A stretch of DNA of 64,000 nucleotides from Agarophyton chilense (Eukaryota; Rhodophyta; Florideophyceae; Gracilariales; Gracilariaceae): contig JARGXX010000088.1 in NCBI GenBank assembly GCA_030374765.1, positions 1,488,001-1,552,000 of the forward strand, given 5' to 3'. Under the pieces are notes generated by a model, which was not told the DNA's origin, ran no database searches, and worked only from the letters and a program-made list of their open reading frames with translations. Positions 22,801 to 62,764 of this stretch are shown in pieces. Every line of letters starts with the position of its first letter. The first letter of the stretch is position 1. A program made the position numbers and the translations under genes.

Positions 22801-23785
22801 GATTGTGCGTCCGCCTCTAAAAGTTCAGAGCACCTCAGTCACCTTAAGGAGAATCTTTCGGCAAACTTCGATGTAGTAGTTTATGGGGAACTCAAGGCAT
22901 TCATCGGATGGAGCATTCAACATTCTTCATTCCGCATAAAAGGTCACACAGTACGGATACGCTCTGCAAGTGCTCAAGCAGTTTGGCATGCAGGACTCCA
23001 ACCCAGTAGGGTCACCTTTATTAACTGCAGCAGATCTTCTATCAACCAAGGGAAACGAAAACATACTCTTCGCAAGCGATCATGCGAACTATCGCTCTGG
23101 AATTCGTGGACTTCTTTATATAGCGATATCTACCTGCCCGGATCTTTTTTATTCAATTTTGGCTCTTTCAAAATATATAAACAACCCTTTTGAACGACAC
23201 TACTCTCTACTGAAACGATTTTTCAAGTACCTGTTTGATACTATTAATCATGGACTTAACTTTCCATCTGGTCGTTCCATTTCCTCCGCTTCTCTTCGTT
23301 CGTTTGCTGACACCGATTAGAGAGGATGTATTAAGACAAGTAGATCCACAGTTTGGTATGTAATCGTCTTCAACAACGCAATAATTTTGTGGAAGTCTAA
23401 GCGACAAACTTTGATTGCTCTCTTCTCAGCGGAAGGAGAATATGTCGCGCTTTCTACATGTGCAAAGGAAATTACTTGGACAAGGAAACTGTTTTGGAAA
23501 TTCGCACAACACCAGACTTGGATCGAAGACTGGTGGTACGAAGCTATGAAGGTCCTGATTCACAGCTCGGATACATTGTCCTTGACCATCAACCCACAGA
23601 TTTCTGGTCGAAATAAGTACATTCACTTGAAGATGTACTATGTCAGAGAGTTATCTCGTATAGAAGTTGATGAACTCGAACATATTCCCAGGAGTCTACC
23701 GATAGCTGATAAACTGACAAAGTTTGCATCCCTCCAAATTGTAAGGAGGATGGTCGGATTGATAACACATGAGTCGTTCTTTTGA
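19880..23785 (+). pseudogene. Ty1/copia polyprotein remnant
   Basis: Scattered plus-strand fragments in copia order, integrase before RT. A gag (UBN2-like) piece lies at 19910-20194. GAG-pre-integrase and integrase core lie at 21138-21760 (CLTCRMKWKLLVP, DLIHIDVSGKVSPSLSGAIY, ILDDLTS; later AFWAEAMNHANWLRNRSPS). RT lies at about 22160-23320 (FDPLKTYNPVACPEAPRILL, VKVADIPKAYLYGQLD; then GMQDSNPVGSPL and RSGIRGLLYIA). RNase H lies at 23387-23785 (SAEGEYVALSTCAKEITW; LTINPQISGRNKYIHLKMYY). The YVDD box is IVGD. Many stops and shifts make it inactive. A possible PBS (TGGTTCTGA near 19609) lies upstream, and an LTR-like TGTTAGGTTTCGAACC starts near 19157 with no second copy seen. Confidence 0.85.
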
Positions 23786-31879: not shown

Positions 31880-31884
31880 CTTAT
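31880..31884. repeat. TSD of gypsy element 2, left copy
   Basis: CTTAT, repeated at 43638-43642. Confidence 0.88.
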
Positions 31885-32800
31885 TGTAGAGCAACGCCCA
31901 GTTAGGGGATACTTGAATATGCAACTCATAGAATGAGGATTGAACCCTCCGAGAGTTATGACTATGATCCCCTCTAAGGTGTGCTGAGGTGGCACTGTTT
32001 TCTGGTTATAGTTCGCCTATGAAGTGGATATTCGGATGGCCCATGGTTGGATTGGCCCCGTGATACACGTGGCTTAATTTTGGCACCGGTTTTCGGATAT
32101 TTGTTAGAACGTTGGACTTTTGGGCCCTGACAGTGGGATCTCCACGTGTATGGCCCTGAGCAGGTGTGCACTACTGTAGAGTTTAGTTAGTGGGCCCTAC
32201 TTAGGAGGATGACATCTGACAGTCCGAAGCTCAGAGTAAATGGTAACCAAGGTTGGTCTTCGATACCTTTAGAGGTTCTTCGTCGCCATCGTTTCGGCCT
32301 TACAACCCGGAACGGGCTCTGGTTAGCAACGCCTGCGTAGGGACACGACTCCACTTGGAGAGTGCCCACGTTTGGGTTCCGTGCAACCACCCCTTTGGGA
32401 CCGCTCAGACGACCTGCGTGCACGATACCCCGTGAGGGTTCTGCTTACTTGTTGCGTGCTTTTTGTGTTTCCTTTCGAGGACAGGTTTTCGCCCCTGTAT
32501 TGGGTTTCTTTTGTTGTTTTGCCCCTTTTCTGGTTCTCGGGTCCGGTGCCTGTTAGTGCCCGACCCTCGCCCCGTTTTTCCTCTTCGCCGGATTTTCCCC
32601 CATTCTTTGGGATACTCATACTCATTCCCGATCCAACGGTTTCTACCCCTCACCTCCGTCGGTACTGCCGGAATCCCCCGTGGGAGTTACACCCCACACT
32701 ACGGGTGGAACGGAGGGCTCTGTCTCTGAGTCTGCCTCCCCCAGGGAGCAAGGCTTCGAATACCTTGAGAGCACTTCCCGTTGCCGGGTTTTGCCCCACA
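31885..32800 (+). repeat. 5' LTR of gypsy element 2
   Basis: TGTAGAGCAACGCCCAG...GCCCCACA, 916 bp, aligned with 42722-43637 without net length change. Confidence 0.93.
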
Positions 32801-32802
32801 AG

Positions 32803-32819
32803 TGGTCTCCCGACTTAGA
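32803..32819 (+). other. Putative primer-binding site of gypsy element 2
   Basis: TGGTCTCCCGACTTAGA starts two bases after the LTR; the first 15 bases match the PBS of element 1. Confidence 0.65.
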
Positions 32820-33027
32820 ATCCGTTCTTGGACTTTTGGGTTGGTCATCCACGTGTTGGAATATCTCTTGGAAGAGGAAGCACCGTCGTGAAGATTTGTT
32901 GTAGTGGTCCCCTTTGGAAAGGGTGGAATTGGTTTTTATTTTTGTTTTGTGTTACGTCATCCGTTCTCCGGGAATCTCGTGATCAAATTTCATCGTTACC
33001 CCGAATTGTAGGTGTCTTGTCTGCAGC

Positions 33028-35058
33028 ATGTCGCCGCCTACCCGTGGTTCCAGGACTGGATCGAACCGTCAAGCGGATTCAGTGCCCCCGGCCCCGCCTA
33101 GGCCGAGGAGCTCAATTCCCGAAGGTCGGAACGATTCCGGTATCGATCCGGACACTCGGAGAGCACCCTCAATGGTTTCAGGTCCTCGAGAGGTCGTGGC
33201 TGTGGGCCCAGCTCCAGTGGTGGAGACCCCCTCAGCAGCACCCCGAAGTCGGGCCGACCCTGAATTACAGCGCCTGGAGACTCGAATCGATATCGCCAAC
33301 GCGGCTCACGTCGAGCTCCTTCAGGAGGTTACTACCCTTCGCCTCAAGGTGGAGGACGCCCCGGTGCGGGGAGTTGCCGATGACCTTCGTACCCTGAGGA
33401 GGGATGTGAACTCTCTTTTGGAAAGCTTTGGTACCCCTGGGGTCTTTATCCAAGAGTACCGGAGCCTCGTGGAGGAACACCGCGTGCAAGGGGAACGCTT
33501 CAGAGCTCGGCTGGACACCCTCGAGGCCATTATCCGTATGGACGGAGACACAGAAGCCTCGAAGGATAAACCCGACGTTTCGGAAGACGAAGAACACCGC
33601 TCCGCTAAACGGGACCGCCGCAAGTCCAAGAAGAGGGTTCACCTCCAAGAGGATTTATCGGATTCCGATCCCAATCGCTCGTCATCGAGTTCGTCATCCG
33701 AATCTTCGGATAGTGAAGATGAACGCCGGTCATCCCGGGCGACTCGGTCGAAGGCTACTTACACCTCTCAAGGGGCAATCCGTACCCGGAAGAAGGGTAG
33801 GAAACACCTTGGATTAAGGGAGCTGAAGCCGACGAATCCTCTCTATCGGAAGCTGCTATCGTATCGCTATTACCGGTTGGATAACCCTTCGGGAGAGCGA
33901 ACATCCCGCGGAACGGGTAAGGTCAAGGACTACATCAAAAGGCTGAGCATCACCCTACAGAAGAGGGAGTTCACAGGAACAGACCCAATTCTGGTCCTCG
34001 ATTTCCTTGCGAGGTTCGTCCAGGAGGCTGACATCCTCGGTATGAGTGAAGCGCAAGCGTATTTTGCATTACCCTATTTCTTAACGGGGATGGCTGAAGA
34101 CCAGTTCAACTCCGTCCGTGGATCATCCCGAGCCTCGGAAGGGGGAGTCACGTGCTGGCCCGAAGCGGTGCAGTACCTCTTGAGGTCATACGCTACTGGA
34201 AATGCGATTCAGGAAGCAATCCTTTCATTAAGGGATACGCGGCAGAAGCCGATGGAAACCGAAACGGTGTATTCAACTCGCTTGAATAAAGCGTTTCACC
34301 GATGCGGGAATGTATTCCCCGCCTACGAGAGATGCACCATGTTTGTGGATGGTTTGGACCCCTCGATAAGGGCATTGGTTGCCCGACATCGGGAAGAGAA
34401 GCGCAAGCTGACCTACTTGGAACTGGTTCAGTACGCCCAGGCTGAGGGGGATACTCTCCGTGCCCTGCAGAACCGAAAGAGTCGGCCGACACGTGCACTC
34501 CTCGCCGATGGAGGTAACTCGTCTTTGTCACTCGCAGGAGGCCCTGCCCCTGTGGGGGTCAATGATAACATTCACTTCATGGGAAGTAACCCCGAATCTA
34601 TGGGTACGTCTGAGTTGCCGTCGACATCCGCTCCGACTACGGATGAAGACCCTGCGCTCTATACCCACGGACGGAGGGTGCCAGCCGCATCGCTACCTTT
34701 TGCAAATACCGCTGCTCGGTTCTCTCGCCCCGGATGGAGGGATAAAGCACCACGTCGCGTGGATTCACGTCCACAACCGAACCCGGCAGAGCTGATTTGC
34801 TATTTATGTTACCTCCGTGGTCACAAAGCACCAGACTCCACATTTCCCCTGCGGGAGGGTTCACGAATTATCGCTCAGTACGGGGCTCTGACCCCTGAGG
34901 AGAAAGCTCGAGTCCCGAGTAGGTCCTATGAGGAACAAAGGATACTCCGAGCCCACCTTGCTGATAGGGATACAGAACTTGTACCCGCGAACGGGGAACA
35001 ACCGGTCCCCTTCCAGGCCGCTGCACCGAATTCGGTGGGGTCCTCTTCGAAAAACTAA
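33028..35058 (+). CDS. gag: gag polyprotein of gypsy element 2
   Basis: An intact 676-residue frame; the ATG at 33028 begins MSPPTRGSRTGSNRQ. Same architecture as element 1: disordered Pro/Arg-rich start, coiled coil near residues 80-180, Lys-rich then acidic poly-Ser tract (near 33660-33740), and a capsid-like domain (NPLYRKLLSYRYYRLD, YFALPYFLTGMAEDQFNSVR, WPEAVQYLLRSYATGN, HRCGNVF). The C-terminal knuckle reads CYLCYLRGHKAPDS: the fourth zinc ligand of the element 1 motif (Cys) is Ser here, which should weaken zinc binding. The frame ends AAA-AAC-TAA, and pol continues in the -1 frame. Confidence 0.9.
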   Translation: MSPPTRGSRTGSNRQADSVPPAPPRPRSSIPEGRNDSGIDPDTRRAPSMVSGPREVVAVGPAPVVETPSAAPRSRADPELQRLETRIDIANAAHVELLQEVTTLRLKVEDAPVRGVADDLRTLRRDVNSLLESFGTPGVFIQEYRSLVEEHRVQGERFRARLDTLEAIIRMDGDTEASKDKPDVSEDEEHRSAKRDRRKSKKRVHLQEDLSDSDPNRSSSSSSSESSDSEDERRSSRATRSKATYTSQGAIRTRKKGRKHLGLRELKPTNPLYRKLLSYRYYRLDNPSGERTSRGTGKVKDYIKRLSITLQKREFTGTDPILVLDFLARFVQEADILGMSEAQAYFALPYFLTGMAEDQFNSVRGSSRASEGGVTCWPEAVQYLLRSYATGNAIQEAILSLRDTRQKPMETETVYSTRLNKAFHRCGNVFPAYERCTMFVDGLDPSIRALVARHREEKRKLTYLELVQYAQAEGDTLRALQNRKSRPTRALLADGGNSSLSLAGGPAPVGVNDNIHFMGSNPESMGTSELPSTSAPTTDEDPALYTHGRRVPAASLPFANTAARFSRPGWRDKAPRRVDSRPQPNPAELICYLCYLRGHKAPDSTFPLREGSRIIAQYGALTPEEKARVPSRSYEEQRILRAHLADRDTELVPANGEQPVPFQAAAPNSVGSSSKN

Positions 35059-35085
35059 ACTTGGGAGTCTCCCCTGCGGGAGGGG
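35047..35085 (+). promoter_or_regulatory. Putative -1 frameshift site at the gag/pol boundary (element 2)
   Basis: TCG-AAA-AAC-TAA ends gag. G-AAA-AAC resembles the A-AAA-AAC slippery heptamer. A hairpin CTCCC-CTGC-GGGAG (35069-35082) begins 13 nt after it. pol is open in the -1 frame across the stop, as in element 1. Confidence 0.5.
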
Positions 35086-38000
35086 CGTCTTCTAAGCCGG
35101 AGTTGAAGACGCCCGAGGCGCTCCAGCTTCGCTCCCCAGCTGTGACTATCCTTTCAAGGAGAACGGCTGACACCGACGTTAACTCGGGATACTTTAGTGT
35201 CCTCCGTCGCCCGTGGATACAGTCCCGTAATCTCCGTATTCCGGATCGAGTTATGGTAATGGCCAAGCGGAATTATAAAGTATTCGCCGACTTCGGCCTG
35301 TCCAACCAGTTTATGGTTCGTCAAATATCTGTCCTGGATACAGGAGCCGCTCCTAACCTAATTCATGTTGAATTGTTACCCCCGCTGCTCCGGGTTCAAG
35401 TTCGTACCGGTCCACGTTTGGATATCGCCGATGCGAACAACAACCCGCTACGGACACTGGGTACAATTTCCCTCATGGTGAGGTTAGGCTCCTATCTCGT
35501 TCAGCTAGAGTTTATTGTATGCAAGTCACTTGCAGCACCAGTCATACTGGGTTGTGACTTTTGCGACCGCTTCGTGGAAGCCATTCGTCCTCGGAATAGA
35601 ACTGTGGAACTCGAAGACGGGTCTACGATCCCAATCGTTCGTAAACCCTTACAGGGAGCAGCGCGAACACGCGTTCCTCTCCCTGTCGCGCAGGAAACTG
35701 TGAAGAAGGACCCGGTGTCTACACGGGTAAAGGTTTCGAAGTCAGTGGCTATCCCGCCAGAATCCCAGGTTTGGGTCATAGTTGTTACCAAGCAAATTGG
35801 TGTGAATGTGATACAACCGAACCCGTCTCTGTATACGTGGCGTCAACTCGCCCTTGCGAATGGGGTTGTCTCCGTGGAACCGGATAAACCTTTCAAGGTT
35901 TTGGTAGCCAACTTTGGAAAGACAACGCAGCATTTGGTCAAACACCAGATCCTGGGTTCTGTTCTTCCACACCCGCATGCGGTCGTACCTACAAAGATCT
36001 CTATCGCAGAGGTCCTTGGTGTGGCGGATCCTAAGGAGGGGGAGGACACTGCCGAAATCGCCGAAGACGGTGAGCATACGACTGCAGCTCCACACGCTGA
36101 ACACTTTAAACCTCAGAAGGTTACGGTCCCTATCACAGGAGTAGACCAGACGGATCCTGTTCAGAAATTGGAGAAATGGGATCTCAACCATGTACCCGCA
36201 TCTCATCGGGAGAAGCTGAGGCACATGCTTCGTGAATTTAACCCCATGTGAGATGGCTCCCTTGGAACTATTGGGATTACAGAACACCGCATCGACTTGT
36301 TACCGAACACTCGGCCTATTGCCCAACACCCTTACAGGGCTGGACCGAAAGCTCGGGAAGAGGAGAAATCTCAGGTGGAAAAGATGCTTAAAGCGGGCGT
36401 AATTGAACCTGCCCCGTCCGCTTGGGCCTCACCAGTGGTGTTAGTTCCGAAACCGGATGGATCGTGGCGTTTCTGCATCGATTATAGACGCCTGAACGAG
36501 GTAACCATTAAGGATGTGTACCCGATCCCTCGGATGGACGAATACATCGACTCCCTTGGGAGCGCTACTGTTTTCTCTACCCTCGACGCCAATTCGAGCT
36601 ACTGGCAAGTCCCTATTAGGGAGGACGATCGAGACAAAACGGCTTTCGTGTGTCATCAAGGACTTTTCCGATTCCGGAGGATGCCTTTTGGGTTGACAAA
36701 TGCCCCCGCAACGTTTCAACGGGCGATAGACATTCTGTTGGCTCCCTTCAAGTGGAGGACGTGTCTAGTGTATTTAGACGACATTATCGTCTTCTCCAAC
36801 AACCTGGATGACCACCTCGAACACGTCAGGGACGTAATGAAGATACTCCGCGACGCGGGAATCACCTTGAAACTCAAGAAGTGCGAGTTTTTCACCGATT
36901 CGGTTTAGTATCTGGGTCATATCATCCGTCCCGGGCAGCTTTCAATCGATGAAGTACGAGTGAAATCCTTGAAGGAAGCAAAACACCCGAAAACTCAAAC
37001 GGAGTTGCGATCCTTCTTAGGTCTGTGTAACGTGTATCGCCGATTCGTCCCGAACTTTGCGGATATTGCCACCCCCCTCAACAGGCTCCTGACGAAGGGA
37101 CAACCAGTTGAACTGGAACCTTTTGGCGGCGCGGAAGCGTCTGCCTTCACGGCACTGGTGAATGCCGTAACATCACCGCCAATCTTGGCTCTACCCAATC
37201 CTGGGCTCCCTTACGAAGTGGGCACCGATGCTAGTGCAAACCAAGTAGGGTGTGCACTGTTCCAATTCTCTGAGGATGGTGAACGTCACCCTATTGGGTA
37301 CTGGTCACGTTCCCTGAATGTCCATGAAAGGAACTACTCGGTCTCCGAGAAAGAATTTTTAGCCGTTGTGTGGGCCTTAGCTACACTTCGCCCCTATCTG
37401 ATGGGTACTCGTTTCAAAGTCCATACGGACCACGCATGCTTGCGTTGGCTCCTGGAGATCTCCGAACCCTCGGGCCGCCTTATGCGCTGGCGTCTCCGAC
37501 TGTCGGAATTCGACTTTGAGATCCTGTACAAGAAAGGGAAGCTGAACACTCAGGCTGATGCACTATCCCGCTTGGGAACCACAGCGGAAACGGAACCCTA
37601 CGAGGACGATGACATCCCGTGTTTTATGGTATCGGACCTGGAGGGAGTAGCTCAACCGCTGACGGATGATGTTTGTGGCGATATACTCGGCAACGAGAGT
37701 CTGGATTCGCCGATCGGCTCTTTTATACCTATCTCTCCAGAGGAGATGATACGCGAGCAACAGCTCGACCCATTCTGTACACGGATTCGGGCTCGCCTCA
37801 ACGGAGGATTTCAGTTACCTTTCGAGGACGACGATCAGGGTTACCTAATCAGGACCGTTGGACCTCGCCCGAAGATGGTGGTGCCGCACACCCTACAACA
37901 GAGGTTATTACACCTCACTCACTATGTGAAGGTTGGCACCCACCCCGGGGGAAGAAAACTGTACCTCACGTTGAGAAGGGACTTTTACTGGCCAGCAATG

Positions 38001-39593
38001 GCATTCGATTGTTACGCCGTCAGACGGGCCTGCACCAATTGCGCCAAGAATGACGTCAAACTTCGGAAGCACTCTAAGAAGTTGACGCTGTTCCCGGCAC
38101 GGGCTCCACTCGAATTCGTGGCCATAGACATCCTAGGGGAGTTTATCAGGACGCCCCGAGGTCATCGGTATCTGCTTGTCATTTCTGACAGATTCTCTAA
38201 GTTAACGAGAACTGTGCCGCTGAAGCGGATCACCGCCGCTACCGTCGCGCAAGCGTTCGTGACCCATTGGGTGTTCGTATATGGACCGCCGCTGCAGTTG
38301 TTATCCGACAACGGAGGGCAATTTGCATCAAAGTTCTTTCAGGATGTATGTCGAATCCTTGATGTAAGGAATTTATTTGTTACTACGTATCACCCTCAGG
38401 GGAATGGCCAGGTGGAGAGGTTTAACCGCACGATACTCAACGCTTTGAGATAGTATGTTGCGGATCACCCCAAAAATTGGGACTTGTACACAGACGCTAT
38501 CACGTATGCATACAACACCCAGGTACATCGGGTTACATCGCTATCCCCATTCGAACTGGTACTGTCGAAGACACCGCCGCCGGTCGCCATCGAGGCTCAA
38601 CCGACGCTGTCGACGTACCCGTCACCGGGATTGTACCGAGAAGCCTGGAAGGAGTGGCTTACGAAGATGGTACCGATAGCCCGGAAAGCAATGGACAAAG
38701 CTCAACGCGCCTACAAGAAGGACTTTGACAATCGGGTTCGCAAACCTCTACCTCAGGTGGAGCCCGACGACTTCGTCTTCCTTCGAAAGGAATACTAAAA
38801 TCCTGAAAAGGAACGTAGGCACAAGCTTTCGCCAATTGTGGACGGACCCTATCGTGTGGTTTCTGTAGACCTGGACACGGTGGTATTGGATATCGCTAAC
38901 CGCCACGAACGGATCTCCAGGGACCGCATCACACGAGCGCCCAACCCAAATGTGGAAGTGGTGTCGGCACCAACGCCCTCCACAGGCGATGATTCAACGG
39001 AAGTTAACCCGTCAGGCGGAGATTCGAACACCCGCCCCGTTATACTTCCGCACCCGGAACGTGGTTTAACCGACCTACCGGAAACTTCGGATACTCCCGA
39101 ACCTGGGCCCGCTCCCTCAAGGGCCCAGTCAACGAACTCTTACAGAGTTACTCCCCCACCGGAGGTAATCAAGCCTCCTGGCTCTCCGCCTAAGGAGGGG
39201 GAGGAGGACTTAGTTCCTTCGCAGGACGATGTTTCGGCGTCAGCCAGTCGCCCTAACAGGGAATCTAGTTCTCACAGTGAGACGGCGAGCCCGACCGAGC
39301 CGGCGACAGAGAAGTCAAAACCCCAGCGTATGGGTAGCGACATCACCGCCGACCCAGCCGAGCACGACGTCAGAAAAGATGACGAAACCCCGCCTAGGGA
39401 GAGTCGTGTGGAGAACTCCGCACCCGGAACGCCTACAGAGCCGACGATCACCCGCCGCCGCGGACGAGACACTGAGGTGTCGCACACTCAAACCCCGCTT
39501 TCTCGGGAACGAGCTGTGTCAGCGGACCCGCACGGGGAAGATCTCGACGACGAGGTTGACCAAATTTGGCTCTCCGTCATGGAATGGGAATAG
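35061..39593 (+). pseudogene. pol: pol polyprotein of gypsy element 2 (PR-RT-RH-IN)
   Basis: One continuous reading frame broken by four stops: TGA 36249, TAG 36906, TAG 38451 and TAA 38796. Protease: VLDTGAAPNL (DTG at 35337-35345). RT: FCIDYRRLNEV, STLDANSSYW, RMPFGLTNAPATFQRA and an intact YLDD (36771-36782). RNase H: GTDASANQ, SEKEFLAVVWAL, HTDHACLRWLL. Integrase: HHCC finger (HLTHYVKVGTHPGG...CTNCAK), AIDILGEF, LLSDNGGQF, GNGQVERFNRT. The GPY/F module follows (PIVDGPYRVV...RISRDRITRAP). After it comes a long Pro/Ser/Glu-rich tail. Without the four stops all catalytic residues I can check are present. Three stops look like Trp or Gln codons changed by G-to-A or C-to-T. Confidence 0.92.
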
Positions 39594-40092
39594 AAACTCC
39601 TATGGAGACACTGGAACCCTCTGGAATGGGAAAGAAATGAGTGAGACCCGTCGAGGACATCTCAGGAGAGTGCTAGCGCGTGTCGAAAGCGCCACCTCAC
39701 ATCCGCTTGCGGAGTGGCAACCGGCGCCCGCGCATTTATGTGCCACACGTCGAATGGCACCGAGCCAATCAAAAGGCTCTGACGACCCACCGTCGCGCAA
39801 ACCGCCTCCGTCGCACGGTGCGTTGCACAAGAGCAACCTTCGTCCTCGTAGCTCGGGTTGACGTTGAAGTCTTACCCCCCTGAGATTGGAGACGCTACCG
39901 CGTCGCGGTTTCTCAACCGTCACGGAATCTAAGAACACTGTTGTTATCGGGAAAATCTCAGCTTTAAGAAAAACCCAAAAGTGGGCCGTTTTGACTCCGT
40001 AGACGGAAGTTACAACGTAGCCCACAGGCCACTCGGCGCCGTTTGGACGAAGTGCTGAGACCCGCTCGCAACACGGAAAAGAACCCACCGGG
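39594..40092 (+). other. Linker between pol end and chromodomain (element 2)
   Basis: 500 bp in which the sense frame changes from that of pol to that of the chromodomain. Around 39701-39731 it carries about 31 bp (ATCCGCTTGCGGAGTGGCAA, CCGGCGCC) almost identical to 40929-40959 near the end of the antisense ORF. An open minus-strand frame here (39600-40202) shows no protein-like features. Confidence 0.45.
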
Positions 40093-40383
40093 GTGTGTCT
40101 AGACCCTACGTTGACACCCTCAAGGGAACTAGAGCGTTCCAAGATGGAAGAGAAGCCCGAACAGGGAAAAGTGTACCCGCAGGAATTCGTTATCGATCGC
40201 ATCGTGCGTCACATCTACACCCCCGAGGGAGAAGCCTGCTACCAAGTCCGATGGTACGGATTCTCGCCTGATGAGGATACAGTGGAACCCATTGAGCACC
40301 TTCCGAGGTCTAAGGTTTTATCCTTTCACCGACGCGCTCGGGTAACCTTGCCTCCAAGTCTGGATCGTGTCCAAGTCGGGTAA
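40093..40383 (+). pseudogene. Chromodomain of gypsy element 2
   Basis: EFVIDRIVRHIYTPEGEACY, then QVRWYGFSPDEDTVEPIEHL. This is a chromodomain homologous to that of element 1, but the Trp of TWEP (one wall of the methyl-lysine cage region) is Val. It lies in a different frame from integrase, so it cannot be translated as a fusion in this copy without a frameshift or splice. Confidence 0.8.
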
Positions 40384-40554
40384 GCCACCACGGGAACTGT
40401 TGTGGATGGGACCTCGAAGTGAGGAAGATGTTGGACCTCTGAAGAGGAATTGAGGAGAGTATCCCGAAGAACACGTGTTGAGAGGGAATTTCTACTGGCC
40501 CTCGGCCTAGCGCCGTTAACTGGGGAACATAGCACCGGTTATCGGGACAGTTTA

Positions 40555-40716
40555 TGATGAAAAAAGGAAAAGAAGACCCACGAAGTGGAGAAGAAGATTA
40601 AGAAGAAGATTGGACCCTAGGAAGGGAAGAAGATGAAGAAGAAGATGAAGAAGATCCTAAGAAGGAAGAAGAAAAGAAGTAGAAGTTAAGATCCTAGGAA
40701 GGAAGAAGAAAAGAAG
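40555..40716 (+). repeat. Long purine (GAA/AAG) tract
   Basis: About 160 nt almost free of pyrimidines, with GAAGAAGATGAAGAAGAAG-type repeats and two copies of GATCCTARGAAGGAAGAAG. It lies between the sense chromodomain and the 3' end of the antisense ORF. Confidence 0.85.
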
Positions 40717-40783
40717 TTATGCAAATATCAGAAGTTTACTATTGGCGCCAAGCTATGCACTCCACAATTGCCCGAAGGCGGAA

Positions 40784-42685
40784 CTACGGAAAGCCCGAGG
40801 AGGGACCCGCCCCACCGTTGGGATTCTGGCCCTGACGGTACGCCGAGGCGAAAGCCAACATCTGGCTCACATCCGTCATACCCGGGGGAATCGGAATGCC
40901 TGCGTTCACGAGGCCTTGTCGCACTCTATCCGCTTGCGGAGTGGCAACCGGCGCCTGCGCAAGGGTGTTCACACCCCACCCGGGGGGAGCAGATGGACCG
41001 CCACCGGATGCATTCGTCGCCGCAGCTGAGGTCGTTCCCACTGGTTGGAAGGGTGCAGATGGCTCCACAGGGAGTACTCCACTAGGAGCTGGCATATCGT
41101 TATCCAACGCTGGATCGTCCAGGTCTACTGGAGGCTCGTACTCGTAATCGTCGGTATAAATGAACCCCGTCGGGTGTCCCACCGGCATCGGTCGAGGCGA
41201 GTCAATCAGCGCCCGTGCTTGCGCCGCTCTGATGCGAACCCCTTCGAAGGGATTGTAATACACCCAGTTACCGGAGCCCGGATCGTACCGGCCAGGAGAC
41301 TTGTCTCGCACGGATCCTTCCCCTGCGGGCTGATTTTCCACTGGAACTCGATCCCATTGGGTGTTGTCGATCACGTCCAAGATTGGATACAGGTCCTGCA
41401 CGCTGCTGGCCGAACCCAACGCTGGGACAAGGTCGATCTGACGCATGATGGTCCGTAGCATCGGAGGAATATACCAGATACGGAAATGGTCATGAGCATC
41501 CCAGAGGAGGTGCGCCGCTACGCGGGCTGCCCACTCGGCTGCAACGAGGGCCCAGTATCCCGAGTTCGGGTCGTGCATCAAACGAGACCCGATATAGTAG
41601 ATGCATGGGGGCAGTTCAGCAAAGCACCCTCGGGGGACCTCGACCTTACTCCACCAAGCTGGAAGTGGCACGAATCGCCCAACCTTCGCCGTGTTACGGA
41701 TACGCTCCAGTTCCACGTGAGGAGACGGGACAAGGAACCCGAAACGGGAGCGCGAGCGGAGCTCGAAGCGCACGCGTTGATCGAACCCATACTGGGTAAA
41801 CAGCCGTTGAAGGTACCTGAATTCAGCCCGAAGGATGGGACGACTCCATTGGAGCATATCTGCTCGGAGAGGAAAACCTGGTCCGCGGAACTCGGCTTCG
41901 GGAAAGGCTGCCACGTTATCCCCGTAGGAGACCTCACCGAACGTGCGGTAATAGGCGACATCGAACCCGTACTCCGGGGGAACCAGATGGTCAAAAAGTG
42001 ACCTCTCCAATCGCTGGTAGGCCAGAGCCTCCATCTCTGCGCCCGCCTTGTCCAGGGACTCCCCGCAACCGCGGTATAGATACTGAGGCTCTATGGCTAC
42101 CCGCGCCCTCCAATCGGGAGAACGTACAACCTCGACAGGTAGGCCACCCGGCAATAAGCCGTCCTCCACGTAGGAGTCGATGAGCTCATCGTCGCGAACC
42201 GCTGTCGGATGGAACCACGGAGCGCGGGAATATATCACCGGATCGGTAAGGGGACTCCACCTTCGAAAGGATTCGTTTGAGATCCAACCTCTGGAGTTTG
42301 CTACCAAGAGCATCGCATGAGCGGAGTTCAACGTCACCGCGTTAATGTCCAAATCCTCCTGAGGATGTCGGTTGCTCGCCGAGGCGGAAGGTTCGGTACC
42401 TGACCGAGCCGCATCCAAACCGGAGAAATATCTACCCTGCTGGGGAGCTTCGTTCTCCGCCGGCGCGGAGGCCGATGGCCCCGAGAGTGGGTTGAGGATG
42501 TATGGGTTCATTCCCTTAAGAGGACTGGTTGAGACTGCTGTTGCGAGAAGTTGCTTATCGCCGAAAGTCGGAGGAGTAGAAGAAAGTTGTACCGATGTAC
42601 CGGTTTTGTGGCGATCCTCAGAAGTGGTGAAGGACCCCATTGGGAGAGAAGTATATATAGTGATCGGAAAGTTAGACACCCGCAA
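40784..42685 (-). CDS. 633-residue antisense ORF of gypsy element 2, function unknown
   Basis: An uninterrupted frame on the strand opposite gag-pol, starting 37 bp inside the 3' LTR and running toward the chromodomain. I recognise no family. The N-terminal 110 residues are Ser/Thr/Pro-rich and probably disordered. Residues 110-430 look folded, with many aromatic and charged residues (AVTLNSAHAMLLVANSRGW, DELIDSYVEDGLLPGGLP, ALAYQRLERSLFDHLVPPEY, GFDVAYYRTFGEVSYGDNVA, RFVPLPAWWSKVEVPRGCF, WALVAAEWAARVAAHLLWDA, RIWYIPPMLRTIMRQIDLVP). The tail is Pro/Gly/Ala-rich with an acidic patch. No signal peptide, membrane span, zinc motif or nuclease motif is seen. TATATATA at about 42652-42659 lies inside the first codons; if it is a TATA box, translation may start later (for example MNPYILNPLSG near 42511). 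Elements 1 and 3 have coding remnants in the same place and direction. Confidence 0.7.
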   Translation of the reverse strand: MRVSNFPITIYTSLPMGSFTTSEDRHKTGTSVQLSSTPPTFGDKQLLATAVSTSPLKGMNPYILNPLSGPSASAPAENEAPQQGRYFSGLDAARSGTEPSASASNRHPQEDLDINAVTLNSAHAMLLVANSRGWISNESFRRWSPLTDPVIYSRAPWFHPTAVRDDELIDSYVEDGLLPGGLPVEVVRSPDWRARVAIEPQYLYRGCGESLDKAGAEMEALAYQRLERSLFDHLVPPEYGFDVAYYRTFGEVSYGDNVAAFPEAEFRGPGFPLRADMLQWSRPILRAEFRYLQRLFTQYGFDQRVRFELRSRSRFGFLVPSPHVELERIRNTAKVGRFVPLPAWWSKVEVPRGCFAELPPCIYYIGSRLMHDPNSGYWALVAAEWAARVAAHLLWDAHDHFRIWYIPPMLRTIMRQIDLVPALGSASSVQDLYPILDVIDNTQWDRVPVENQPAGEGSVRDKSPGRYDPGSGNWVYYNPFEGVRIRAAQARALIDSPRPMPVGHPTGFIYTDDYEYEPPVDLDDPALDNDMPAPSGVLPVEPSAPFQPVGTTSAAATNASGGGPSAPPGWGVNTLAQAPVATPQADRVRQGLVNAGIPIPPGMTDVSQMLAFASAYRQGQNPNGGAGPSSGFP

Positions 42686-42710
42686 CTCGGAATGTTCTTC
42701 CTCGTCTTAT

Positions 42711-42721
42711 GGAGGGGGAGA
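42711..42721 (+). other. Polypurine tract of gypsy element 2
   Basis: GGAGGGGGAGA sits directly before the TGTAGAG start of the 3' LTR, where plus-strand synthesis is primed. Confidence 0.75.
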
Positions 42722-43637
42722 TGTAGAGCAACGCCCAGTTAGGGGATACTTGAAGATGCAACTCATAGAATGAGGATTGAACCCTCCGAGAGTTATGACT
42801 ATGATCCCCTCTAAGGTGTGCTGAGGTGGCACTGTTTTCTGGTTAGAGTTCGCCTATGAAGTGAATACTCGGATGGCCCATGGTTGGATTGGCCCCGTGA
42901 TACACGTGGCTTAATTCTGGCACCGATTTTCGGATATTTGTTAGAACGTTGGACTTTTGGGCCCTGATAGTGGGATCTCCACGTGTATGGCCCTGAGCAG
43001 GTGTGCACAACTGTAGAGTTTAGTTAGTGGGCTCTACTTAGGGAGCTGAGATCTGACAGTCCGAAGCGCAGAGTAATTGGAAACCAAGGTTGGTCTTCGA
43101 TACCTTTAGAGGTTCTTCATTGCCATCGTTTCGGCCTTACAACCCGGAACGGGCTCTGATTAGCAACGCCTGCGTAGGGACACGACTCCACTTGGAGAGT
43201 GCCCACGTTTGGGTTCCGTGCAACCACCCCCTTGGGACCGCTCAGACGACCTGCGTGCACGATACCCCGTGGGGGTTCTGCTTACTTGTTGCATGCTTTT
43301 TGTGTTTCCTTTCGAGGACAGGTTTTCGCCCCTGTATTGGGTTTCTTTTGTTGTTTTGCCCCTTTTCTGGTTCTCGGGTCCGGTGCCTGTTAGTGCCCGA
43401 CCCTCGCCCCGTTTTTCCTCTTCGCCGGATTTTCCCCCATTCTTTGGGATACTCATACCCATTCCCGATCCAACGGTTTCTACCCCTCACCTCCGTCGGT
43501 ACTGCCGGAATCCCCCGTGGGAGTTACACCCCACAATACGGGTGGAACGGAGGGCTCTGTCTCTGAGTCTGCCTACCCCAAGGAGCAAGGCTTCGAACAC
43601 CTTGAGAGCACTTCCCGTCGCCGGGTTTTGCTCCATA
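42722..43637 (+). repeat. 3' LTR of gypsy element 2
   Basis: 916 bp, same length as the 5' copy, with a few percent substitutions by eye. The terminal CA is TA here. Confidence 0.93.
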
Positions 43638-43642
43638 CTTAT
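43638..43642. repeat. TSD of gypsy element 2, right copy
   Basis: CTTAT, identical to 31880-31884. Confidence 0.88.
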
Positions 43643-44201: not shown

Positions 44202-44653
44202 TGTAACGCAATGACTGGTGAGTCAGCGTATTGGTCCCAACCTGAGGTAGCGTGGTAGAGCGGCTCGTAAGGTCCGCACCCTTGACGGTGGGACTTCCAT
44301 AGTACTTTTTGCAATGGGCGGGCGTTTACTGCGTAGTCCTAGAGGTCGGAGATACGGAAACCATGGCATGAAGACCAAATGGTGGAAGTAATATACCAAA
44401 GGGGGTAATTTAAATTTAGTATCTCAACTGTTCCTACACGATTCTAAGGGAAAGGCGTCGCTCGAGCCAAGTAAATATCAACGGCGAGGCGCTGAGATCT
44501 CCCTTGCACTATAAGGCTATTATATCACATTAAAGAAAACATGATAATTCTCTAAATATGTCCAGCTGAAGTCGGACAGTCCACGTGGCCTCTGTAGGAT
44601 ACCTCAGGCTCTAGCGAATTACAGGACTCAACCGTAATAATTTCTCCTTCACA
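44202..44653 (-). repeat. 3' LTR of gypsy element 3
   Basis: Homologous to 54382-54827 over its length. CATCTCCCGCCT at 44654-44665 (AGGCGGGAGATG on the minus strand) is the likely polypurine tract next to it. Confidence 0.9.
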
Positions 44654-45145: not shown

Positions 45146-45490
45146 ATGCCGAACTCGCCTTATAAGCCCGTCGGATACGCCACTCTCCCTGCGAACTTTG
45201 TCGCTTCCATCGGTTCTCCTATTCATTTACAGACGGATCAACCTGTAGGCATCGAAGCCATATTTTCAAAGAGCCAAACAAGCAGCTCTTCAGGGTACCA
45301 AGTGGCGTATGAGTGTCCCGGAGACCATTACGACCCTACCATCGGACGAAATACGCGTTCACTGCGTCGTGCTATTTTGCCGCCCTCTGTTGAAGAATAC
45401 CAAAGGTTCTGTCACCTGTATCTAGATGCCCGGAGGTTCGCTAAGATCCACGATTTCTGGAAGGGCACAAAGAAAGCTCGCAAAGTCTAA
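45146..45490 (+). pseudogene. Opposite-strand ORF remnant in element 3, 5' part
   Basis: A 114-codon frame from ATG 45146 on the strand opposite to this element's pol, about 490 bp inside its 3' LTR. It reads as a folded protein (YATLPANFVASIGSPIHLQT, SVEEYQRFCHLYLDARRFAK, IHDFWKGTKKARKV). No family is recognised. Its place and direction match the antisense ORF of element 2. The region to 46815 contains further open stretches in shifting frames (for example RVWHDEDIPRPGG...DIMIRILRNLGIQN near 46497-46610), as expected of a decayed long gene. Confidence 0.5.
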
Positions 45491-46815
45491 TGGTATAACT
45501 GTTGGTGGCATTGTCCTGTGGATCCCTGTTCGGCGACGCGCTGTCGTACCCTCATCCAGACGGACATGCCGCATGTCTATTGTGAGGAGGAAGCCGTGTA
45601 TCAGTTTAGAATGAATAAACTTCTTTTGGACCTATACGAGGACTGAATTTTGACTCACGTGAGCTTTCCTCCGGTGGGTCGAAATCTCTTGGCGCTCATG
45701 TGCTTCAGACCGCCGTTTGCCAGCCTGTTTCGGATTTATAATAGGATTTATTGAACGGGGTGCAAGAGCTCGATGGTCTTTTGCATCAATCCCTTGAGAT
45801 GTTCTTCTGTTGGCACCAAGTGAAGTTTCACGACATGAGCGCAGACATACGTCTTCCGCTATACTCTCACTTTCACGCGTGGATGAGAACCAATGGGCTG
45901 TGTACTGCCTTATCTCGCCTCTCCTCTTGGTTTCAATGCCGTCACTAGTGGTGTATCATTCGTCCCAACTGTTGCTCGCGAACACTACGGAGGACGAGAT
46001 CCTACGCGCGCAGTGGGGTCAGGCAAAAGAGAAGGCACAAAGCCCTTGGAAGACTACTCCCAGAGCTGCCTCCCGCTCTCAAAGGTCTGCCAAGGAGAGC
46101 GGGCTTTCATCTTGTAGTTTCCCGCAGCGCGGGAACCGTCGACTGCAACGCTGTGGGTTGCGTTCCAGACGACGGGTCCTTGTTCGCTCTCGTTTGGTCT
46201 GATCTAACAGCCATGATTGTGGTTTTCTTGCCAGGCCAGAGAAAGCTATCAATCTACTAGTTCAAACTACTGAATTTGCTACCTACGGCTTCGTGGGTGG
46301 CCCGCAAAGATAGATATGATACTGTAACAGATAGGATTGCTCGCATAATTAACACCAACTCATGGGCGATGGCAATGACCGAAGCTCTTAGTTGTCCAGC
46401 CAGGTACTCTTCACTGAGGTCGGCGTTATATCCCTTATGGCCTTCCTGGATATCGCGAAGTACGGAGTCCGTGGTAATGTCCGTTTAGATGATTAGAGGG
46501 TATGGCACGACGAGGACATACCCCGTCCTGGAGGCCGTCTAATACCACTTCCAGACATCATGATCCGTATTCTAAGGAATCTGGGAATCCAGAATATTGT
46601 CTGTAGGACCCAGTTCGCCGTCGAGGAGACAGAGACCCTTTTTAATTATGTCCTACAAGTGAAGTGAAACAGGACTCCCGTGTTTTTTTGATGTGACCAC
46701 AATACCCACTCGTTCGCCCCGATACCGCTACATCCTCAGGGTCGGGATGACACTCTTTCTTATCCTGCCAAACCCTTGAGTAGTCAAGTATCAGACATTC
46801 CGAGGCCTCATGTGA

Positions 46816-47616
46816 CTGACTATTACCTGAAAGCCATTGGCTTTTAGCCCCCGTTGCTCGGAGCCTGACTTGGAGGCCACGCCGTTGGCTCCTGATGTTA
46901 TGTCAGATGGAGAATCCTTCGGTGAGAATCCCTTCGTCATACCCGTGGAGGGCGTCAATCCTCCGGTCGAGTCCAATGTTGTGTTGCCGACCGCCTCCCC
47001 ACCTTCAGCTCCTCCAGGCGCTGCTCCTCAGGATGAAATCTCATATGAGCCGCCCGTCGCCCAAGTAGACATCTCTCCTGGAGTTGTTACTATCGAAGCC
47101 GCTAGTCCTGTAGGTGATACGACGGCTCAGACATTCACCGTGGGCGCAAATATCGCTCTGTTCTCTCCATTGCCGCATTTTCCCGCTTCACTCACGACTG
47201 CAGCCACAAATCTCCGTCATGTCTGCCGTACCATTCTTATTACTGCCTAGATGGACATTGCGACAGTCCTAAGGGATGCTTGCCTTTGGGGGCGTCGCTA
47301 GGCGCGCTACGCCGCGGTTCTCCAACAGGGTGAAAATCTAAAGACCGCTATGGTAAATCTCCTGCAGCAGAATGCAAGAATGATGTCCCAGATGATTACT
47401 GCCGACTTGGATGCCCCGTATGGTCTAAACTTGAGCGATCGGGAGGCTTCCGAGGGTGACAATAGTTTTTCAGGGGAATCTACGTCGAAGAAGCGTGCTC
47501 AGCTCGCTGGTGCCGGTCCTACTTGTACAGTAGGCTCCTCGGGTGATCCTAGCCCCGGTTTCGCTTTTTCAGGTTCCAATGAGGACGACGGGGTTACTCC
47601 TGCGCCACCCCAGTGA
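46816..47616 (+). pseudogene. Opposite-strand ORF remnant in element 3, 3' part
   Basis: One plus-strand frame open for 800 bp apart from two TAG codons (47248, 47299). It is Pro/Val/Ala-rich at first (ENPFVIPVEGVNPPVESNVV), then has a Gln/Met-rich helical segment (AVLQQGENLKTAMVNLLQQN, ARMMSQMITADLDAPYG) and a Ser/Gly/Asp-rich end. It stops about 300 bp before the chromodomain of pol, which runs the other way. I take it as the C-terminal part of the element's antisense gene. Sequence similarity to the element 2 protein is not obvious by eye. Confidence 0.45.
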
Positions 47617-54381: not shown

Positions 54382-54827
54382 AGTAACGCAAAGACTAGTG
54401 GGTCCGTGTACTGGTCTCAACCTGGGAGAGCGTGGTAGAGCGGATCTTAAGGTCCGAAACCTTGACGGTGGGACTTCCATAGTACTTGGTGCAATGGGCG
54501 AGCGTTTACTGCGTAGTCCTCTAGGTCGCAGATACGGAAACCATGGCATGAAGACCAATTGGTGGAACTAATATACCAAATGGGGTAATTTAGTATCTCA
54601 CCTGTTCCTACACGATTCTAAAGGAAAAGCGTCGCTCGAGCCAAGTAAATATCAACGGCGAGGCGCTGAGATCTCCCTTGCACTATAAGGCTATTATATC
54701 ACATTAAATAAAACATGATAATTCTCTAAATATGTCCAGCTGAAGTCGCCCAGTCCACGTGGCGTCTGCAAGATACCTCAGGCCCTGGCTGCTTACAGGA
54801 GTCAACCATAATCGTTGCTCCTTCACA
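54382..54827 (-). repeat. 5' LTR of gypsy element 3
   Basis: Partner of 44202-44653. Several substitutions and small indels separate the copies. The plus-strand left terminal TG is AG here. Confidence 0.9.
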
Positions 54828-57995: not shown

Positions 57996-58239
57996 TATGA
58001 ATGTAGACACTCTCGTAGACTCTATCGAAAGCGCTGATATACAATGCATCTCCATTTGTATTTGAATCCTGTATTACACGACGCCCGGTCTCACCTTACG
58101 TGACAACCGCTTGTGCATGGAGCCTCATGGCTACAAATACCAGAACTTGCACTCCGTTAAAGACGAGTAAAGACGACCAGACTGTACTTCGACTACACTC
58201 TCTGCTTAGATTCCTGTATCTAACTCCGATCATACTTAG
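57996..58239 (+). repeat. 5' LTR of copia element
   Basis: TATGAATGTAGACACTCTCG...GATCATACTTAG. The first gag ATG (58242) follows almost at once, leaving no ordinary leader. Confidence 0.82.
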
Positions 58240-58241
58240 TT

Positions 58242-58823
58242 ATGGGCCCCCAACCCGCAACCCATACTCTTCCTTCTCGGCCCAAATTCTCATGGGATTC
58301 GAAGTCTCCGCCGTGGACTGACGGCAAAGGAGACCAGGAGGAATATCGCGATGCTGTAAAATTGTGGCAGACGTTCCACAAAGCACTTCCAGTTTACAAC
58401 AATAACAAAATTTCTAACGAGCTACAGGCAATTTGCCTCAAGTCGCAGCTCTACGGACGCGCCAAAGACCTCTGCTCCGGAATCACTGATGAGCAGCTTG
58501 TTGGTGAAGGTGCTGTTGACCTGCTGGTCGGTCAAATTTACAAACGAGATGCACTCTCTGTTGTCAGCGATGCCTATAAGGCATTTAACCAACTCTTGAA
58601 CACCCGTCGTGCCGCATCCGAGAACATGAAGAACTTTGAGTCCCGCTTCAGCGCGCAAGTTGCCAAGTTTAACGCCATATCAACAACGACAAAGCTACCT
58701 GACTGTATCACTGCACTAATGCTGATTTCAAACTCTTCCATCGACGATGTCCAACGTGTATCTCTCATGGCTGCTTCGGCTCCGTCCGCGGCCAATCTGA
58801 GCGCCGAGTCGACAAACGACTAA
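58242..58823 (+). CDS. gag: gag part of the copia element
   Basis: 193 residues resembling copia-type gag (UBN2-like): YRDAVKLWQTFHKALPVYNN, NELQAICLKSQLYGRAKDLC, DAYKAFNQLLNTRRA, NFESRFSAQVAKFNAI. It ends at TAA 58821-58823, beyond which the same frame stays open and continues with the zinc knuckle and protease. The stop may therefore be a mutation, or a readthrough site. A start at 58242 directly after the LTR is unusual, since it overlaps where a PBS should lie. Confidence 0.75.
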   Translation: MGPQPATHTLPSRPKFSWDSKSPPWTDGKGDQEEYRDAVKLWQTFHKALPVYNNNKISNELQAICLKSQLYGRAKDLCSGITDEQLVGEGAVDLLVGQIYKRDALSVVSDAYKAFNQLLNTRRAASENMKNFESRFSAQVAKFNAISTTTKLPDCITALMLISNSSIDDVQRVSLMAASAPSAANLSAESTND

Positions 58824-61800
58824 TTCCTCAGTGCAGTGACCTACAATTCTGTAGCATCTGTTATCAAGCAGTGCGACAAGTCTCGCCCATACACCTCCGA
58901 AAATAACGAAAGCACACTGAGTGCAAGCTCTGGCGGCCTTTCCCATCAGGGAAGCAAGAACCGTAGAAATGGAAACCGCGATAGGTCTGGAACATCACCC
59001 ACAATGAAGTATCCGTGCAACACATGCGGAAAATATGGTCACTGGAAACGAAACCATCGCGCGGACGGTTCGCTGGCACCCGGTGTGAAGTCTTTCGACC
59101 ATCCGTTAAACGCAACCAATTCAACGAACAGCAATGGAAATTCATCGTCGTCTGTATCTGGCTCCGGACCAGCATCGGCTGAAAGTGACAAAAGAGGAAC
59201 CCTTTCCTTCAACAACGCAAACCTTGATCGTTCACTGCAAGACTCAACTCTTCTCGGCCCGCTCGTCGATAGCGGTGCACCATACTCAGCTATCGGTCTA
59301 TTTGAACTAAATGTTCTAGCAGATCACCATGGCCTGTCACACAACCCGACACTCAATGCAATCCCGAAGTCACTTGGGGGATTCACGTGCTCGCAGTATG
59401 GTGTCGGAACGCACGCAAGCCCCGCCCGCAAAATTCTAGGGTCAATTGTGCTGAATGCCATAACCGACAACAGTAACACAGTTTGTATAACTCACCTCGT
59501 ACTCGATGGTTCATCGCAATGGGTAATCGGTCGCAATGTAACCAGTCGAGCGAACATCGAACATATCGGTCGTAACGCACTTGTGTTCCCCTTTCATGGA
59601 GAAGAAGATCTTATCTATCTTGTCGAGCGTCAGTTTCTATCGTTTATAGAGCTATCCAGGTTCCGTCCGTTGACCCAATCAAAGAACGGCTTATCGGTCA
59701 ACTCCGGCTCTACAATGTCATGTCTCTCGGCAGTGTCTGTCAACCACTCTTCATGGCCTCGTGTCAAACACGTGCTTGACAAAGTTCACAAACACGTTTG
59801 CGGACATGCTGCGTTCTCAGACTACAAGGTGTTTCTGGAGCGCAACGGCCTATGGAACAACGTCGTAGCCAAGTATCTTTCAGATGTCGTGAGCACCTGC
59901 AATGCATGCCACTCCACCTCGCTACCGAAACCATCCAGAAAAGTATCCATTAGCTCTCTATTGAAAGAGTTCAACGAAATACTGTGTGTAGACCACTTGT
60001 TACTTGAAGGACTCTGCGTCTTTCATTGCATGGAACTCGTCTCACGGTTCTCCGCCGCACGTGTTGTAAGAACCACCTCTCTCAAAGAGGCAGTCATCGG
60101 CTTCGAATCATGCTGGAACTCGCAATTTTGGTACCCAGACTCATTTCTTGCTGACAAAGCGTTTACCTCCGGTGACTTCCAGTCGTATGCCGACTCTCTC
60201 GGAATTCCGATTAAGCTTGTTCCCAAGCAACTTCATCACAAAAACCCCATTGAGTCAAAGCACAACATCATACGATCGGTGTTCTTGCGCTTGAAAGAAA
60301 GTGCCGGAGATGATTACATCCCGGAGGTTGCTGCCTATCAAGCAGTCACTATCTCAAAAGACTTGTATGGAAACGATGTCATGTCCGCATTCGAACTGGC
60401 AAAGGGCTTTACCAAACCGATCAACACAAAGCCAGCTGACACCGCTGTTTCCCAGGACGTCATCGACGCTCGTGACCAACTGCACGCCCGCCGCAAGTTG
60501 GCACTGATCCTTAGATCGAAATCGACCGACGAAGTACCGATAGCCACTGGTGACACGGTAGAAATCTTTCAAAAGAAAGATACTGAGAAGCGTGGCAGAT
60601 GGTCTGAACAGAAGACAGTACTCGCAGTCGATCGCCATGACCGCTCTATTTCCGTACCTGGCAGCAATGGCCGAGTCATTACTGCCGCGATTGAAGATGC
60701 TCGCCCCGCCATCTCCCCGACATCATTCGCTCAAGTTGTGCAAGATGCAATTGACACTCTCGATGAGTGCATGCCCGTATTATCTGACACTGCTCACGAT
60801 GAAACGCTCTCGACAAACGCCGATGATGACCGAAAGGACGAGTCGCACGTCACACCCGAAGACCCTCAGGACTTTTCCGATGACCGCAATCACAGCCCAG
60901 CTGTTGGTGACCGAGTTGATGTTTTATGGGATGATGATGGTGTGATAAACCCTGGTGCGGTACACTCGCGAGCCGAAAGCGGCAAAGTGACAATACACTA
61001 CGACAATGGGGACATTGAGAACGATGTAGACCTGAACAGTGTACAGTGGACACCATCTGACGCTACCGAAGCCGCGCTTGCTGCTGCCAGCAGCAATCTG
61101 AAAGCTAGGCTACAGGTCACTAGCACTGAAGACACGGTACTCTCATCGATGCTAGAGCACTTTAATAATAAGCCTTTTATGCGGCATCAAGCTCAAGGAT
61201 TTGATCAATACCCGCTCGTCAATGCGTATGCCCGGGAAGAAGAGACCTTTCTGAAGACCGCTCGCGTTGTTTGCATTCGAGATATTCCTAAAGGAGCTAA
61301 CGTCATCAACAGTCATACGCTCTATAAGATCAAGCACAATGACGATGGATCCTTGAAGTTGAAAGCCCGAATCGCGCCGCATGGAAACGAAGACGCTCTC
61401 AAACACACCCTCAGCAAAGACTGCGCCACATGCTCGCCGACTGGGCTTCGTATCCTAGAATCTGTGGCATCTCTTTTTGGCTGGACACTTTATAAGGCAG
61501 ACGTTAAAGCCGCATTCTTACAGACCGGTGCTGCTGAAAGAGATGTGTATGTGAAGCCACCTGCTGAGAGTCACATGCGTGCGACACATGTGTGGCTCCT
61601 TTTAACTGCTGCGTATGGCTTAGTCAACGCCAACGCTAAATGGCAATCAAAGTCAGATGCCGTGATGCCAGAACTTGGACTAGAGAAATCCAAGCACATA
61701 CCCCAGCTTTTCTTCAAGAAAAAGGATGGAAAGCTAGCACTTCTGGTTGCCAAGGTCGTAGATGACCTCAAGGCAGTAGGGGTAGGAGACCATGCCAAAC

Positions 61801-62753: not shown

Positions 62754-62764
62754 AGAGAGAGCGA

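Follow-up and report, generated by a model that had tools for sequence, protein, structure and literature searches.

Does the long open reading frame that runs opposite to gag-pol in a gypsy retrotransposon of the red alga Agarophyton chilense belong to the element as a gene of its own? The frame lies in a window of 64,000 nucleotides (contig JARGXX010000088.1, positions 1,488,001 to 1,552,000; all coordinates below are counted from the first letter of this whole stretch), taken from a genome assembly of 80 Mb in 135 contigs. An earlier note, made from the letters alone, had placed the frame in the second of three elements of the window, here elements 1 to 3, and had proposed a conserved accessory gene with counterparts in the other two. 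Our analysis shows that the frame is a protein-coding gene resident in a chromodomain Ty3/gypsy lineage, antisense to gag-pol and located between the chromodomain and the 3' long terminal repeat (LTR). Sequence comparison clearly indicates that the gene is common to three families, the two to which elements 1 and 2 belong (families 1 and 2) and one more, family 4. It is under long-term purifying selection, with near-neutral decay within one burst of copies. The gene is very likely useful to the element, since its protein sequence is kept by selection and it recurs in many copies and families.

The antisense frame and its copies in the genome

The antisense frame of element 2 (40784–42685, minus strand) comprises 633 codons and a stop, or 640 codons from stop to stop, and is free of internal stops, exactly as the earlier note had reported. 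If codons are uniform, we estimate the chance of a random 640-codon open frame at about 5e-14; the remaining five frames of 40787–42640 contain 9–20 stops apiece. The TTG at which the 633-codon listing starts is an artefact of the bacterial start rule. Two ATG codons are likely to be better candidates than this TTG. ATG 42640, codon 16 of the frame, would give a protein of 618 amino acids and is conserved in 27 of 30 family-2 copies, and ATG 42511, codon 59, would give 575 amino acids and is conserved in 29 of the 30. We regard ATG 42640 as the best-supported start, with ATG 42511 as the alternative; an ATG is present near the same N-terminal position in three of four family-1 copies and in all three family-4 copies shown. 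The probable extent of the gene is thus 40784–42640, within a frame that stays open to 42706.

When the element 2 protein was compared to its own genome, the best 70 of 1886 candidates comprised, besides the window copy, 69 with 92–94% amino acid identity, and each of the 70 covers at least 625 of the 633 residues. Thirty-nine of these 70 copies, the window copy included, are stop-free (counted by eye). Thirty family-2 copies (L009–L038, of which L009 is that of the window) share 96–98% of their DNA sequence. Our listings of gene copies and of reverse transcriptase (RT) matches hold best matches, and totals drawn from them are lower bounds. Among the matches listed, which include 149 typed RT hits out of 150, 37 of the 70 copies have an RT match 2.3–4.1 kb (median 3.87 kb) past the gene's 3' end, and in all 37 the RT lies on the strand opposite to the antisense gene, in none on the same strand; a single RT match was listed within 6 kb on the other side of the gene. 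The remaining 33 copies were not counted as negatives, since only best matches were listed. Together, protein queries from four families gave at least 457 matches in this genome (70 + 150 + 124 + 113), a total that includes the queries' own loci and possible assembly duplicates.

Related families, descent and selection

In element 1 most of the gene has been deleted, and what is left is an N-terminal remnant of 131 codons (13391–13783, minus strand) that starts with ATG 13783. The remnants of elements 1 and 3 taken alone yield no tblastn match to the element 2 protein on the right strand with E below 0.3 in the window, so that the earlier remark that homology was unproven holds for the remnants themselves; the fuller relatives in the genome show the homology. 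Forty DNA matches to the element 1 antisense interval were obtained, 37 of which align only within its first 407 bases, while the whole 561 bases are matched by three, element 1 itself (L039), L040 and L041. Seventeen family-1 relatives without the deletion were fetched (L042–L058); in L048 and L051 the antisense gene is one uninterrupted frame of 611 codons, and the other 15 have stops or frame changes. The protein encoded by L048 shares 35% identity with that of element 2 over 469 aligned columns (E 1e-82), and the family-1 protein query retrieved, as the best 113 of 1684 candidates, copies with 86–100% identity.

One of the family-1 loci, L043, also held a fragment of family 4. The query derived from this fragment found the best 150 of 1428 candidates at 83–100% identity; among eight fetched copies, L065–L069 have open frames of 639–667 codons and three are shorter. 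The L068 protein is 37% identical to that of element 2 (E 2e-109).

The third family is that of element 3, which lies on the minus strand. Its decayed antisense gene occupies 45146–47616 on the plus strand (the right end is that of the earlier note), with an ATG at 45146 and a broken frame, and carries about 384 bp extra at 45971–46354 relative to the genome copies, absent in all six copies fetched. Matching the element 3 interval gave 78 pieces from the best 40 candidates, itself included, with 74–84% DNA identity, and a query from the L062 fragment gave the best 124 of 857 candidates at 68–100% identity. Of eight fetched family-3 copies, L073 and L074 are open, with 748 and 698 codons. A profile of family 3 (6 of 14 fetched sequences) was compared by hhalign to a profile of the other three families made of ten sequences (3 of the 30 fetched from family 2, 1 of the 17 from family 1 without the deletion and 6 of the 8 from family 4). 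The two align in order over 150–195 columns with a score of 43 (E 2e-4), a score reached by none of 60 and none of 400 column-shuffled controls (maxima 28.1 and 32.8); the reversed profile scored 19.6. Since the profile comparison exceeds these controls, the family of element 3 is probably a more distant relative that carries a homologous antisense gene. Two results count against this link: BLASTP finds no significant match between family 3 and the element 2 protein (E 0.32), and hhalign's own probability for the link is only 46–48%.

Of the counterparts that the earlier note had seen in elements 1 and 3, the first is borne out as a remnant of the same gene, and the second is probably a homologue, by profiles only. 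Other family members with an open antisense frame, for which that note had suggested a search, exist in families 1 (L048, L051), 2 (the 39 stop-free copies), 3 (L073, L074) and 4 (L065–L069).

How the families came by the gene can be judged from the divergence of pol. RT identity is 67% between elements 1 and 2, 77% between element 2 and family 4, 63% between element 1 and family 4 and 47–51% between element 3 and the others, the family-4 RT being L081, which was assigned to L065 by distance and strand. For the core of the antisense protein (approximately residues 135–525, 41111–42283 on the minus strand, delimited from the family alignments and core identities) the corresponding values are 38%, 43%, 38–39% and, for family 3 to the others, 19–25%. 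Because the core identities rank in the same order as those of RT, the gene would most simply have been present in the common ancestor and inherited along with pol.

Selection on the frame was assessed by dN/dS in 15 pairs, of which the ten deep pairs were fitted with several starts and bounded t. Six pairs within family 3 gave dN/dS values of 0.38–0.60, with twice the log-likelihood difference (2dlnL) against a value of 1 being 9.2–46.9. In four pairs between families a dN/dS (omega) of 1 was rejected with 2dlnL of 121–131; the fitted omega of about 0.02 is unreliable in size, as synonymous sites are saturated and t lies at or near its bound, and only the rejection of 1 counts. Within the antisense frame, differences are most frequent at third codon positions, both between families and within family 3; between families 2 and 4 they amount to 0.66 at third, 0.50 at first and 0.40 at second positions. 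The accessory gene proposed in the earlier note is thus conserved: each of the three window elements has homologues in its family, that of element 3 linked through profiles only, as does family 4, and the gene shows long-term purifying selection and a divergence that follows pol.

Several observations weigh against a selected coding gene. Codon usage does not single out the antisense frame: one sense frame interrupted by 20 stops had a higher score. In the open family-1 copy L048 ATT replaces the ATG. In pairs from recent bursts dN/dS was 1.03 and 0.73 in family 2, 0.93 in family 1, and 0.84 and 0.76 in family 4; 2dlnL against an omega of 1 was 0.0–2.0. Among singleton changes in the 30 family-2 copies 160 of 501 are synonymous (31.9%, where 27.6% are expected), a slight excess that is near neutral. 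In young copies near-neutral change of this kind is to be expected, and most of it reflects decay that followed insertion. A dN/dS near 1, which the earlier note had held to speak against the gene, is accordingly confined to copies of one recent burst and is rejected in the family-3 and between-family pairs.

Element 1, L040 and L041, which are without most of the gene, also weigh against its importance. The same chromodomain C-terminus adjoins the interval in L040 as in element 1, so that L040, and L041 judging from its match, share the deletion of element 1. As two more copies carry this deletion, the gene may be dispensable for some copies or supplied in trans, and the three may form a small subfamily that moved without it. 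L040 and L041 sit 7.5 kb apart on contig C1, and segmental or local duplication could be the other explanation for their deletion.

The selection results also bear on two other explanations of the frame. It is very improbable that the antisense RNA is what matters, as a natural transcript that restrains or silences the element while the open frame is incidental. Such a transcript would run across the 3' portion of the genomic RNA, and a role of this kind is raised for plant elements in the relevant passages of PMC7264820, yet a non-coding RNA would not be expected to show purifying selection on an open frame or long-range homology at the protein level. We also consider it improbable, though less so, that a host or foreign gene was captured once by the ancestor and is now a passenger. 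The protein is without relatives in Pfam, PDB sequences, PHROGs and NCBIfam (all PDB rows have E of 0.6 or worse), as the earlier remark that it resembles nothing known had anticipated, and of 19 and 143 pattern matches in IMG/VR and GTDB contigs none was confirmed, the alga's own genome being the only eukaryote collection searched. This would suit a captured gene, but a passenger would not stay selected across families that differ in a quarter to half of their RT residues. The present case rather shows that chromodomain elements can carry an antisense gene as a resident component of long standing.

The protein and its possible role

The proteins of families 1, 2 and 4 have a common layout (by eye): a probably flexible N-terminus rich in Pro, Ser and Thr, a core of about 370 amino acids, an acidic stretch and a short conserved C-terminal segment. 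Trp, Arg and Pro are invariant at many positions of the core, which also includes an Arg-rich segment (for family 4, ..ERRGRSRFGFLVPY..), and the sequences thus yield a protein family with invariant residues. The usual cut-off for a membrane segment is a hydropathy of 1.6 over 19 residues. The best 19-residue values are 0.97 for the window protein, 0.93 for L048, 1.19 for L065 and 1.32 for L068, while L066 reaches 1.74 only in a tail past the usual end, so that the hydropathy scan gives no evident membrane segment in families 1, 2 and 4. The C-terminus of family 3 bears a basic cluster of the PPKKRARL type, in which PKKR is invariant in all six aligned copies; such clusters often serve as nuclear import signals.

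We favour, with somewhat better than even confidence, a full explanation in which an old resident antisense gene has an antisense transcript of its own and encodes a regulatory protein acting for the element. The transcript would start in or beside the 3' LTR, a start suggested by the antisense ATG lying only about 25 bp (element 1) and 81 bp (element 2) inside the LTR edge; in element 3 the ATG is about 490 bp away from the edge of the LTR as aligned. The antisense promoter near the 3' LTR that the earlier note had proposed would fit the arrangement in elements 1 and 2. Host sequence beyond the LTR could alternatively provide the promoter. A TATATATA-like (TATA-like) stretch at 42650–42660 on the minus strand, directly upstream of the antisense ATG, is a candidate promoter element. 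Less confidently, our best guess is that the gene encodes a regulator that is soluble and probably nuclear and would act on the element's own DNA or RNA, possibly to adjust transcription from the LTR or to counter silencing. This proposal draws on the soluble make-up of the protein, on the basic cluster in one family and, by analogy, on gene23 of the maize element Grande, for which nuclear localisation and antisense transcription have been reported (PMC7264820, PMC11963269, in their passages on this gene).

Some details do not fit such a regulator or its promoter. The TATA-like stretch is too near ATG 42640 for usual promoter service, differs among copies, and was not seen by eye upstream of the gene in the other families. 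The basic cluster is confined to family 3 and absent in the other families, and L073 of the same family has a 19-residue stretch with a hydropathy of 1.82.

This stretch and the location between pol and the 3' LTR, which is the position of env, are what an envelope-like gene would predict. We regard that as the least probable explanation: the gene is antisense, whereas env runs in the direction of gag-pol, and the hydropathy stays low in the four proteins of families 1, 2 and 4 given above and is 1.36 at the same place in L074, the homologue of L073.

A relationship to Gag was considered and rejected, as BLASTP gave no similarity and hhalign gave scores of 14.9 and 18.7 with a reversed control of 16.8. 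The protein might alternatively be a structural or replication accessory (a second Gag-like protein, a nucleocapsid-like protein or a packaging factor) and not a regulator. The Gag proteins of elements 1 and 2 are 38% identical over 599 columns and the antisense core is 38% identical between the same elements, so the evolutionary rate of the antisense protein is close to that of Gag, and full or near-full length is kept in many copies. Since the protein is unlike the elements' Gags by BLASTP and profile, and since it would be unusual for a component of the particle to be translated from an antisense RNA of its own, we hold this to be unlikely, if less so than the passenger explanation.

For years, some plant and fungal elements have been known to carry antisense genes close to the 3' LTR. 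Plant antisense reading frames between pol and the 3' LTR, termed aORF-3R, are described in Grande (gene23), rice RIRE2, Silene Retand and PvRetro13, and in the passages concerned their proteins are reported to have no clear similarity to database proteins (PMC7264820). As far as these descriptions go, the red-algal gene resembles them in position, antisense orientation, many copies per family, conservation comparable to other element proteins and lack of database relatives; the element 2 frame (40784–42640) lies between the chromodomain end at 40380 and the LTR at 42722, opposite gag-pol. It differs in that the hosts here are chromodomain elements of a red alga, and the likeness is one of layout and not of compared protein sequences. 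In Retand, antisense TRP28 proteins with the Transposase_28 domain (PF04195) have been proposed to have a regulatory or DNA-binding role (PMC11963269, in its account of these proteins). As described there, they share with the present gene the pol–3' LTR interval and retention across the lineage; Retand, however, belongs to a non-chromovirus lineage, while elements 1 and 2 have the chromodomain, and the algal proteins are without PF04195, seven of them matching no Pfam family at E up to 10. The comparison with plant elements of the Tat/Ogre type made in the earlier note is thus apt for the layout, whereas the host lineage differs and no shared domain was found.

Among fungal elements, Boty carries a chromodomain. 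Boty-like elements of Botrytis cinerea have an additional antisense gene, brtn, in the pol–3' LTR interval (Zhao et al. 2011, as cited in PMC8365987; PMC7264820), and the likeness to it is again in layout, judged from these descriptions. For the start of transcription an analogy of mechanism only, from an unrelated system, is offered by HBZ, the antisense gene of human T-cell leukaemia virus (HTLV) type 1. An antisense promoter inside the 3' LTR of HTLV is mentioned in PMC7264820.

Searches of a library limited to open-access papers listed no report of an antisense gene of this kind in red-algal elements. The compact genome of this alga (80 Mb) allows such a gene to be traced across three or four families: copies number in the hundreds, frames that are open over their full length occur, and selection can be measured. 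A more far-reaching interpretation, which we put forward tentatively and hold at less than even, is a new protein family of red-algal chromodomain elements, encoded antisense from the 3' LTR end, that serves as a self-encoded regulator or anti-silencing factor and is convergent with the Retand/Grande and Boty genes. If true, elements in three deeply separated host lineages would have arrived independently at an antisense gene in this position. The plant or fungal antisense proteins may also be homologues whose likeness is too faint for profile search.

The host elements and their surroundings

Element 2 is complete from LTR to LTR (31885–43637), with a Gag frame, RT, RNase H, integrase and a chromodomain, all on the plus strand. 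Its 5' LTR (31885–32800) and 3' LTR (42722–43637), the last two bases of each extended by eye, are 96.8% identical over 914 aligned bases and are flanked by a 5-bp target duplication, CTTAT (31880–31884 and 43638–43642), read from the sequence, as was the polypurine tract GGAGGGGGAGA (42711–42721) that adjoins the 3' LTR. The Gag frame (32983–35055, 691 codons) is open and has no Pfam match of its own; the Gag of element 1 matches Retrotrans_gag. RT, RNase H and integrase (36252–38450) match Pfam RVT_1, RT_RNaseH, Integrase_H2C2 and rve, and pol ends in the chromodomain (40021–40380; Pfam Chromo, PF00385, 2.2e-07). Since pol contains at least one in-frame stop (36906–36908), the window copy is probably inactive.

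A 34-nt direct repeat with one mismatch occurs near the end of pol (39701–39734) and within the antisense gene (40928–40961); with three substitutions allowed, two copies are present in L010 and L012 and one in the stretch of L020 examined. A long GAAGAAGA-type purine tract (40545–40720) separates the chromodomain stop from the antisense stop, and convergent transcripts would meet there.

Element 1 has a 5' LTR at 5675–6389 and a 3' LTR at 13808–14562 (plus strand), both from LTR comparison, and its chromodomain frame lies at 12779–13246 on the plus strand (Pfam Chromo, PF00385, 4.5e-09). The LTRs of element 3, found in the same way, are at 54383–54827 (5') and 44203–44653 (3', minus strand). 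A chromodomain at the end of pol, the mark of chromoviruses, is thus present in elements 1 and 2, and none was detected among nine frames scanned from element 3 and others.

The window also contains an apparently young Copia-type element (57996–63013), whose LTRs are 97.5% identical over 243 bases and which has a single open frame of 1129 codons with RVT_2, as well as a decayed Copia-type RT fragment with a weak RVT_2 match (22639–23190, plus strand). To the left of element 1 there is a fragment of a DDE_3-type transposase (4945–5367, minus strand; 1.1e-05, which fails Pfam's cut-off), and a host gene at 545–1612 (minus strand) encodes an EMC2-like tetratricopeptide repeat protein (Pfam TPR_EMC2, 2.6e-13). 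Phycobilisome linker genes gave 13 matches in the genome, one of them on the contig of the window, in support of a red-algal host; of 14 control genomes only that of a cyanobacterium matches. On contig C39 these linker matches recur at a spacing of 185,684 bp, as if the plastid genome had been assembled more than once round.

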